Source: Bacillota bacterium (GTDB lineage: Bacteria > Bacillota > Dehalobacteriia > UBA4068 > UBA4997). Taken from it: 64,000 nucleotides of DNA. The notes under the pieces are model-generated. The model saw nothing but the letters and a program-made list of their open reading frames with translations, was not told the origin of the DNA and searched no databases. Shown piece after piece: positions 43,586-56,120 of this stretch. Position 1 is the stretch's first letter. Each line of letters opens with the position of its first letter. Location: NCBI GenBank assembly GCA_017397935.1, contig JAFQHN010000016.1:1-64000 (forward strand), in the 5' to 3' direction. The position numbers were made by a program, and so were the translations under genes.

Positions 43586-43849
43586 TTACAACGCCTGTGG
43601 GTCAACATCCACCACAATAACCTCGCTGCCCACCTTGCATACCTTCTCCCACGGAATTTGCAGCAGGTGCGGCTCCGCACCAAAGCGTTTTTTTTCGCCC
43701 GTCAATCGCTCGCCGCGGCTCGGTATAATCAGCGCTTCAATCAGGCCGGTGTCGGGGTTTACCACCAAATCGGCATCCCCCACCAAACCCAAAATCTCGC
43801 CGTCAAAAATGTTGATTATCCGTTTCCCCAAAAGCTGACTCAGCCGCAT
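43586..43849 (-). CDS. ymxH: YlmC/YmxH family PRC-barrel sporulation protein
   Basis: An 87-residue PRC-barrel protein (RLSQLLGKRIINIFDGEILG, DADLVVNPDTGLIEALIIP, IPWEKVCKVGSEVIVVD). The YlmC/YmxH family is conserved in spore formers and its role is unclear. Position between ymxG/dut and the dipicolinate genes matches ymxH in Bacillus and Clostridia. A GGAG lies close to the ATG. Confidence 0.88.
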   Translation of the reverse strand: MRLSQLLGKRIINIFDGEILGLVGDADLVVNPDTGLIEALIIPSRGERLTGEKKRFGAEPHLLQIPWEKVCKVGSEVIVVDVDPQAL

Positions 43850-53525: not shown

Positions 53526-54263
53526 TTACTCAGCAGCGGGTGCTTCCTCAACAGCCTCAGCCGGAGCCTCAGCCATGGATACGCCCTGGTTGCCTTCGAT
53601 AACAGCGTCAGCCATCTTACCGGTCAACAGTCTTACAGCGCGGATAGCGTCGTCGTTGCCGGGGATGGGATAATCGATTTCATCGGGGTCGCAGTTGGTG
53701 TCAACAATAGCCACAATCGGGATATTCAGGCGCTTTGCCTCAGCAACGGCAATGCGTTCCTTTCTGGGGTCAACGATGAACATAGCACCGGGCTGGCCCT
53801 TCATATCCTTAATACCACCCAGGAAGCGCTCCAATTTTTCCATTTCGTTCTTCAAAACAGAAACTTCCTTCTTGGGCAGCTTTTCAAAGGTGCCGTCCTC
53901 CTGCATTCTTTCCAGCTCACGCAGACGACGAATACGGGTCTGAATGGTCTTGAAGTTGGTCAGCATACCGCCCAGCCAACGCTCGTTAACATAATACATA
54001 CCGGCGCGCAAAGCTTCGTCCTTAATAGCCTCCTGAGCCTGCTTTTTGGTACCAACGAACAAAATGTCCTTGCCCTCAGCAGCCACAGACTTAATGAAAT
54101 TGTAAGCCTCGTCTACCTTGTGTACGGTCTTCTGCAAGTCGATGATGTAGATACCGTTTCTTTCGGTGAAGATGAAACGGGACATTTTGGGGTTCCATCT
54201 TCTGGTCTGGTGGCCGAAGTGTACGCCGGCCTCCAACAGCTGTTTCATAGAAATTACTGCCAT
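53526..54263 (-). CDS. rpsB: 30S ribosomal protein S2
   Basis: The 245-residue protein begins [19 protein letters not shown], with [17 protein letters not shown] and the [21 protein letters not shown] segment, all standard for S2. It ends in an acidic Ala/Glu tail. AAGGAGG is eight bases before the ATG at 54261-54263; an upstream in-frame stretch is leader. Confidence 0.97.
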
Positions 54264-54386
54264 TTTTTCTTCCTCCTTTTGTTTAGCCTTCCGGCAGCTT
54301 CCAAAGCCCCGCATCCGCCACAAATTCATCATGCCGGACACTGGCGCGGCCAATTCGCCACCGTGATTATTTTTAAGCCGTTTGCT

Positions 54387-54415
54387 ATTATACCACATAA
54401 AAAGCCGCACCGCAA
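54387..54415 (-). promoter_or_regulatory. Promoter of rpsB, -35 inside the upstream terminator
   Basis: -35 TTGCGG (54410-54415), 17-base spacer, -10 TATAAT (54387-54392), TG one base upstream. The -35 and half the spacer are also the 3' arm and T tract of the terminator at 54399-54455. Confidence 0.82.
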
Positions 54416-54455
54416 GCATTTTTTTGCCAAATTTGCCTGCAATACGGCTTTTTTT
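54399..54455 (-). terminator. Terminator after the small ORF downstream of hslU
   Basis: On the minus strand AAAAGCCG pairs with CGGCTTTT, with an inner GCAGGCA / TGCTTGC stem, followed by T5 (54403-54399). The plus strand also ends in T7. Confidence 0.8.
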
Positions 54456-54461
54456 CAGATT

Positions 54462-54599
54462 TTATTCAGCAGTTTCCCGCACGGGAGCAAAGTCAAACAC
54501 TTCGCCGCCCATATAACAAACCAGATACTTCCACGTGTCAGCGTTCTCCATCGGCTCAGGGTTTATCACCGCACCCAACACCAGCACAATCTCGCTCAC
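54462..54599 (-). CDS. Overlooked 45-codon ORF after hslU, function unknown
   Basis: A GTG at 54597-54599 with GGAG five bases upstream opens 45 codons that begin MSEIVLVLGAVINPEPM and end FDFAPVRETAE. The composition is protein-like: a hydrophobic start, then TWKYLVCYMGGEVFDF. A good terminator follows the stop at once. The frame stays open for 24 more codons upstream, through the 3' arm of the inverted repeat at 54609-54733, but has no AUG, GUG or UUG there. It may be a real small gene, part of a repeated element, or a decayed remnant. I recognise no family. Confidence 0.5.
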   Translation of the reverse strand: MSEIVLVLGAVINPEPMENADTWKYLVCYMGGEVFDFAPVRETAE

Positions 54600-54608
54600 T
54601 CCAACTCC

Positions 54609-54733
54609 AAGGAAGTGCGCGAGTGCGCCAGATGCAAGGAAACGAATTTTGAGTCGCAGGAGGCGTATTCAATATACGCCGACAAGCGAGAAATTCGATG
54701 ACACCGCAGATGGCGTGCTCCCGTCACTTCCTT
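54609..54733. repeat. 125-nt imperfect inverted repeat starting at the hslU stop
   Basis: Outer arms AAGGAAGTG (54609-54617) and CACTTCCTT (54725-54733) pair perfectly. A second broken stem of GC-rich bases follows on each side. Further in are CGAATTT / AAATTCG and TCGC / GCGA, and a central perfect seven-pair hairpin GGCGTAT/ATACGCC near 54660-54678. The right arm overlaps the hslU stop codon. It could be a structured RNA, a MITE/REP-like element or a processing site. Confidence 0.7.
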
Positions 54734-56105
54734 ACAGGATGTAGCGGCTCAGGTCCTCGTTGTCCGCCAACGCCCCCAATTTATTCTCCACATAAGCACG
54801 GTCAATAACCACTTTTTCCAGCGAAGCATCGGGCGCAATAAACAGCAGATCCTCCAACACCTTTTCCAGCACGGTATGCAGGCGGCGCGCACCGATGTTT
54901 TCAGTGCTGGCATTCACCTGATAAGAAATTCTGGCCAGCGCATCCACGCCGTCCTCCGCAAAGGTTACCTCCACGCCGTCAGCCTGCAACAGTGCCATAT
55001 ACTGCTTCACCAGTGAGTTCTGAGGTTCCAGCAAAATTCGCTTAAAATCCTCCTCGGTCAGGCTCTCCAACTCCACACGGATGGGGAAACGCCCCTGCAA
55101 TTCGGGGATAAGATCAGAAGGCTTGCTCATCGAGAACGCCCCCGCCGCAATAAACAAAATATAGTCGGTTTTCACCTGGCCGTATTTGGTCATCACGGTG
55201 CTGCCCTCCACAATAGGCAGAATATCACGCTGCACACCGTCACGGGAAACAGCAGCAGAGTTGTTGCTGCGGCCGGCAATTTTGTCGATCTCATCAATAA
55301 ACACAATACCGCTTTGCTCGGCGCGCTCAATGGCTCTGGTGGTCACATCGTCCATATCCACCAACTTGGCGCTCTCCTCCTGCACCAGAATTTTTCGGGC
55401 CTCACGCACACTCAGCTTCCGCTTGTGGGTTTTCCTGGGCATCATACTGCCCAGCATATCCTGTATGTTAATGCCCATCTCGTCCATGCCGCCGGGCTGC
55501 ATCATCGGCTGCTCCTCCACCTCGATTTCCACCAGGTGGTCCTCCATCTCGCCCAGCTCCAGCATACGGCGCACCTGCTCACGGCGGTTTTTGTTATCCT
55601 CCAAATACTGTCTGTCCTCATCAGAGGGGGTGTCATCACCGCCACCGCCAAAGAACATTTCCATCGGGTTTTTAACCTTGCGCTCACGTTTGGTCGGCGC
55701 CAGCAATTCCACCAATCTGTCCTGGGCAGCGGCCTCACCCTGCGGACGCACCTTCTCCATCTGCTCGGCCTTCACCATACGCACGGCGGTCTCGGTCAAA
55801 TCACGGATGATACCCTCCACATCACGGCCCACATAACCAACCTCGGTGTACTTGGTGGCCTCCACCTTAATAAACGGCGCGTTGACCAGCTTGGCCAGTC
55901 GGCGGGCGATTTCGGTTTTACCCACACCCGTAGGCCCAATCATAATAATATTTTTGGGCATGATCTCGTCCTGAATAGCCGCCCCCAAACACTTGCGGCG
56001 ATACCGGTTGCGCAGCGCCACGGCCACACTTTTCTTGGCATTCAACTGGCCGACAATATATTTATCCAGCTCGGCCACGATTTGTCTCGGTGTCAGTTCA
56101 TGCAT
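54732..56105 (-). CDS. hslU: ATP-dependent protease ATPase subunit HslU
   Basis: An AAA+ unfoldase with [17 protein letters not shown] at the start, Walker A GPTGVGKT (about 57-64), Walker [12 protein letters not shown] and the C-terminal LSRYIL that docks into HslV. The acidic, Met-rich I domain (about 140-235) is present. I start at the ATG at 56103-56105; a GTG two codons earlier is also possible. It follows hslV by about 15 bases. The stop codon lies in the arm of the inverted repeat. Confidence 0.96.
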
Positions 56106-56120
56106 CTTCACATAGCCTCC

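Follow-up and report, generated by a model that had tools for sequence, protein, structure and literature searches.

Extragenic palindromes of the REP/REPIN type are associated with the RAYT (Y1) transposase. Among the dispersed hairpins of bacteria, the ERIC/IRU (RU-1) element of enterobacteria is a 127-bp imperfect palindrome (PMC2229807; PMC2759123; PMC2267715), which the literature drawn on here places at the 3' ends of genes and for which effects on the upstream mRNA that depend on its orientation are reported in Yersinia (PMC2229807; PMC10969869). Similarly, the QMITE2 element of Coxiella burnetii is described, in the portion of its account used here, as overlapping gene 3' ends (PMC5896051). 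The locus considered in this work lies in a window of 64,000 nucleotides (the whole stretch of DNA analyzed, to which all positions refer) and brings such a hairpin together with a short ORF between hslU and rpsB. We argue that this ORF is very probably what decay has left of a predicted lipoprotein gene resident in that interval, namely its 3' end.

The genome containing the window (G000, a 1.59-Mb assembly) was compared with eight genomes of the same genus. Six of these (G001, G002, G004, G005, G006, and G007) carry an intact ORF of 234-256 aa in the hslU-rpsB interval (the G004 version being counted as 253 aa from the aligned start codon, with the longest ORF there reaching 272 aa). These ORFs display an N-terminal hydrophobic stretch and a lipobox-like cysteine, 'lipobox' being a reading by eye, and are hence predicted to encode lipoproteins. 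The MAG contig L050, from goat caecum, carries a seventh member upstream of rpsB; hslU was not found on the examined stretch of this contig, and the same coordinates in the profile search indicate that it probably belongs to the G003 genome. In G008, the contig end cuts hslU, and the lipoprotein profile matches listed there are N-terminal only. Distant members adjoin hslU in G018 and G020, and G009, from another genus of the same family, has no gene of at least 60 codons between hslU and rpsB. Many further matches, present in all 35 genomes, cover only the N-terminal part of the profile; these reflect signal-peptide similarity and were left out of the member count. The first member studied matched no Pfam or NCBIfam family above its cut-off, and the tallies for the members consist mostly of weak lipoprotein, DUF, and signal-peptide-like matches (cut-offs not shown), the best being NF058647, 'acidic lipoprotein' (4e-8, three of six members). 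Searching PDB chains with a profile returned a single chance-level N-terminal match (E 0.82), and single-sequence structure prediction of the L050 protein was uninformative (pLDDT 40.9).

The 45-codon ORF at 54,462-54,599 (minus strand) holds the place of this gene in the window, and its relationship to it emerges from tblastn, synteny, alignment, and dN. When its 45 residues were searched by tblastn in 61 genomes, 14 of these, counting its own, had a match at E ≤ 10. Most of the matches are noise; those in G002 (E 0.011) and G004 (E 0.059, per genome) fall on the lipoprotein C-terminus within the hslU-rpsB interval. The protein-level homologues on which the initial annotation had made its gene call depend therefore exist, and they are full-length genes. 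The alignment is in register, with the stop codon of the ORF at the stop position of the family, and identity reaches 12/29 residues against both G002 and G004 and 8/29 against G005. In full-length local alignments, none of 5000 shuffles did as well against G002 or against G004; the corresponding shuffle p is about 0.01 for G005 and G007, 0.03 for G001, 0.08 for G006, where the tail alone is significant (p 0.016), and 0.38, not significant, for L050.

An ORF that arose by chance and was never coding would be consistent with the DNA-level alignments to relatives, none of which shows significant similarity (shuffle p ≥ 0.156 in all seven comparisons), and with a lipoprotein profile match that is weak by itself: using the seven-member profile, the frame of the ORF ranks second among the 1614 frames of the window at E 0.48, the first-ranked frame matching the N-terminal part of the profile only. 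However, chance accounts poorly for an ORF that shares its place and register with the resident lipoprotein gene and resembles its C-terminus, or for a codon-usage score, 0.286 per codon and equal to that of the window's typical genes, which only 0.7% of 153 spurious ORFs (38-60 aa) attain. As this score is so rare among spurious ORFs, the coding-like composition goes beyond chance, and we consider a purely accidental origin very improbable. To that extent the protein-like composition noted in the initial annotation, and the protein-coding origin that it implied, are supported by both codon usage and homologues.

The case for decay of the lipoprotein gene, as opposed to its mere presence, comes from what the ORF lacks and how it has changed. 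About 650 bp of the 5' part of the gene, including the signal peptide, is missing from the window. The ORF thus shares with the family its place, its frame, the position of its stop, and the sequence of its C-terminus, but retains the last 45 codons only, with neither signal peptide nor lipobox. Because nothing more of the gene is left and the upstream frame is repeat-derived, the ORF is a remnant rather than a member of the lipoprotein family. Of the nine tail residues invariant in six relatives, four are kept and five lost, as read by eye. Its dN to G002 is 0.47, versus 0.25 for the intact pair G002-G005 and 0.05 for G002-G004, in a comparison limited to 29 codons with saturated dS. The hslU genes of G000-G002 and G002-G005 are similarly related (91.9 and 93.6% identity), and amino-acid change in the ORF appears accelerated relative to the intact lipoprotein pair. 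The compared stretch of the ORF and its relatives contains one internal indel, of three codons.

Several features of the ORF would suit a C-terminal piece that has become a separate short gene encoding a genuine translated small protein. As initially annotated, it starts with GTG, and a GGAG lies 5 nt before this codon in the upstream sequence CGCACTTCCTTGGAGTTGGA; a comparable Shine-Dalgarno match is seen in 7% of the same 153 spurious ORFs. Further, the 45 codons are free of stops and frameshifts and have the gene-like codon usage noted above, so that they may still be translated. Yet no stand-alone 45-aa form is recognizable by tblastn in any other of the 61 genomes, the hits being full-length tails or noise; more than half of the invariant tail residues are gone; and the ORF is devoid of a signal peptide while its parent is a predicted lipoprotein. 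We accordingly regard a functional small protein as unlikely, and what had been presented as an unannotated 45-codon gene turns out to align with the C-terminal end of a far longer lipoprotein gene in relatives. The reading frame was further said to run upstream through the inverted repeat without a start. It does enter the repeat without a start codon, but extends for only 23 codons, being closed by a stop inside the repeat at 54,669-54,671. Nor is there support for the repeat having once encoded the N-terminus: it belongs to an unrelated, dispersed hairpin element that recurs at many other loci, and the N-terminus missing from the ORF went with the 5' part that the lipoprotein gene has lost. 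The absence of codY is upheld, with no PF06018 (CodY) match in the window's own genome at E ≤ 10 in a search whose controls gave signal and in which 2 of 14 were over the cut-off; a CodY remnant was accordingly dropped as an identity for the ORF. Elsewhere in the window, an 87-codon ORF at 43,586-43,849 (minus strand), lying outside larger ORFs, combines a gene-like codon score of 0.36 with a Shine-Dalgarno match and is a better small-gene candidate than the 45-codon ORF.

On its rpsB side, the ORF is followed by an inverted repeat (54,399-54,453, minus strand) that had been called its own terminator. The hairpin and the T residues after it are real, but its 3' arm holds the -35 element of the promoter of rpsB (53,526-54,263, minus strand), which reads by eye as TTGCGG, a 17-nt spacer, and an extended -10, TGGTATAAT (54,387-54,415, minus strand). 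Throughout the genus the hairpin aligns together with the TTGC-, TATAAT-like promoter, and G009 and L050 share the promoter portion. Since this portion is conserved even in G009, which lacks an hslU-rpsB gene, the hairpin/promoter module belongs to rpsB and not to the ORF. A simple consensus scan of the 54,399-54,453 region found neither promoter nor terminator; the terminator-like hairpin/promoter arrangement as a whole (54,387-54,453, minus strand) is conserved in the genus. Ahead of rpsB lies a conserved leader (54,264-54,386, minus strand) with the genus-conserved blocks CACGG... and ATGCGGGGCTTTGGAA..C..CCGGAGG and without an Rfam match, which, judging from its sequence, may be an S2 autoregulatory leader.

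On the hslU side lies a copy of a dispersed imperfect hairpin element of ~128 nt (54,606-54,733, minus strand), which abuts the end of hslU (54,732-56,111, minus strand) such that the hslU TAA at 54,732-54,734 overlaps the first bases of the element. The 132 nt at 54,604-54,735 (minus strand) fold as one long imperfect hairpin with an MFE of -56.4 versus -36.3 kcal/mol for shuffled sequences (z -6.0). A covariance model built from 12 copies and run on 35 genomes of the order listed 83 matches in 10 of them; copies are present in eight of the nine genomes of the genus, with 1-21 each, two marginal matches occur elsewhere in the order, and G003 and G009 gave none. From the 53 stretches analyzed around the stronger matches (some weak matches being left out) together with the window, we obtained 68 copies at E ≤ 1e-6. 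Using the structure from individual folds, 80.3% of cells pair versus 64.4% in shuffled and 33-41% in slid controls, and the arms covary strongly, with changes on both sides in 492 cells versus 186 shuffled, figures that lean towards structure in that the alignment was fitted to a model holding part of the structure tested. Tandem arrays of ~130-150 bp per unit are seen at L210:4293-4700, L214:2487-2820, L213:5288-5640, and L209:2396-2669 (G005 and G000). No Rfam covariance model matched 54,250-54,800 at E ≤ 1, the whole window having just a tRNA at gathering score, and relatives of the hairpin were absent from phage and plasmid collections and viral contigs at the sensitivities used.

A notable property of this family is its placement. 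Of the 68 copies, which are not independent, some being orthologous (four genomes sharing purC, two sharing hslU and a number of further sites) and some tandem, 35 start no more than 20 nt from the stop codon of a co-oriented ORF of at least 100 codons. Among 20,000 random positions drawn from the same loci outside ORFs, the share is 9.05%; three of the 68 copies show the mirror arrangement. With a looser limit, the stop lying anywhere from -60 to +44 nt, 46 of 68 copies count as sense and 17 of 68 as antisense, 13 counting as both. Several host genes terminate at a TAG that the element itself supplies (model positions 14-16); judging from their sequences, the host genes appear to include groL, tuf, rplL, purC, argF, glmM, and flagellin. 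Such tight, strand-specific placement, the strong covariation of the arms, and the sharing of some sites by several species, as at purC, would suit a regulatory RNA in the 3'-UTR of hslU and of other genes, for example a stability or processing signal, as an alternative to a mobile element. Against this stand the diversity of the host genes and the base-pair counts: G-U pairs number 148 versus 234 expected, and A-C mismatches 125 versus 212 expected. As G-U is not favored over A-C, there is no sign that one-strand RNA pairing is what is kept, and selection on the RNA strand is not supported.

Sites that are empty or scarred in close relatives also run counter to a 3'-UTR signal. At purC, copies are present in G002, G005, G006, and G008 and absent in G004; G001 retains just the two ends of the element (L265) and G007 apparently a short scar (L263), remains that suggest loss of the hairpin tip. 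The groL end is without an element in G000, G001, G004, G005, G006, and G007. Downstream of groL in G006, G007, and G001 (L274, L275, and L276), a different repeated sequence family is found. At hslU, an element occupies the stop codon in G006 as in G000, there ahead of an intact lipoprotein gene, and G007, with an hslU 99.3% identical to that of G006, has none. The G000 and G006 copies share 56% identity and fall into different subtypes; their divergence and the empty site in G007 point to what were probably two independent arrivals. Taken together, we hold the 3'-UTR interpretation possible but doubtful. It need not exclude mobility, and we put forward, as a rather long shot, a genus-specific mobile element whose sense insertion is directed to stop codons via a folded single-stranded DNA intermediate, which carries its own stop codon, and which would have hit hslU twice independently at the same stop codon. 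By bringing this codon along, the proposed element could land harmlessly at essential genes, presumably groL, tuf, rplL, hslU, and purC. A REP-associated Y1 transposase is not supported as the mobilizer: PF01797 has no match in G000 at E ≤ 0.01 and was over the cut-off in one of seven relatives searched.

Returning to the decayed lipoprotein gene, these observations can be arranged into a plausible sequence of events. In the genus, the gene has its place between hslU and rpsB. In the window, a mobile-looking hairpin copy adjoins the hslU stop codon, and both the intergenic stretch and the first ~650 bp of the gene are missing; the order of insertion and deletion is one that we infer. With this 5' loss went the signal peptide, the lipobox, and the greater part of the protein, leaving the ORF as the probable surviving 3' end, with its GTG and GGAG as likely by-products of the junction. 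A tail once under constraint would thus now be decaying, presumably as a non-functional fragment, its frame and codon bias being preserved because the loss is probably fairly recent.

These findings remove a false small-gene call, the ORF at 54,462-54,599 being in all likelihood an ordinary remnant. More generally, decayed gene tails can mimic new small proteins, down to a ribosome-binding site and gene-like codon usage. The hairpin family, with its unusually tight, strand-specific placement at the stop codons of housekeeping genes, can be used to ask how short mobile hairpins select gene ends and whether they alter mRNA stability.

Among known systems, REP/REPIN sequences share with this family the character of extragenic palindromes, but the hairpin here is much longer. 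ERIC/IRU is a close parallel: as in the published descriptions drawn on, we find an imperfect palindrome of ~127 bp that forms a single long stem, copies scattered over the genome at sites that are filled in some genomes and empty in others (hslU, purC, and groL), and location at gene 3' ends, a likeness of architecture and placement. The differences are that our family belongs to another bacterial group and that its tight stop-codon placement has been measured; as for the TA target duplication of ERIC, the hairpin flanks were read by eye, those of relatives being too diverged. QMITE2, as far as the account used goes, likewise lies at gene 3' ends with short overlaps with C-terminal codons, but has a GTAG REP together with direct repeats of variable length (7-11 nt), neither of which is seen in the hairpin. 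To judge from the literature searched, the family is apparently undescribed in print. It resembles ERIC and QMITE2 in placement, and we claim membership in neither; it is a new family of a known, ERIC/QMITE2-like kind, putative in its mobility and function and notably strict in its position.
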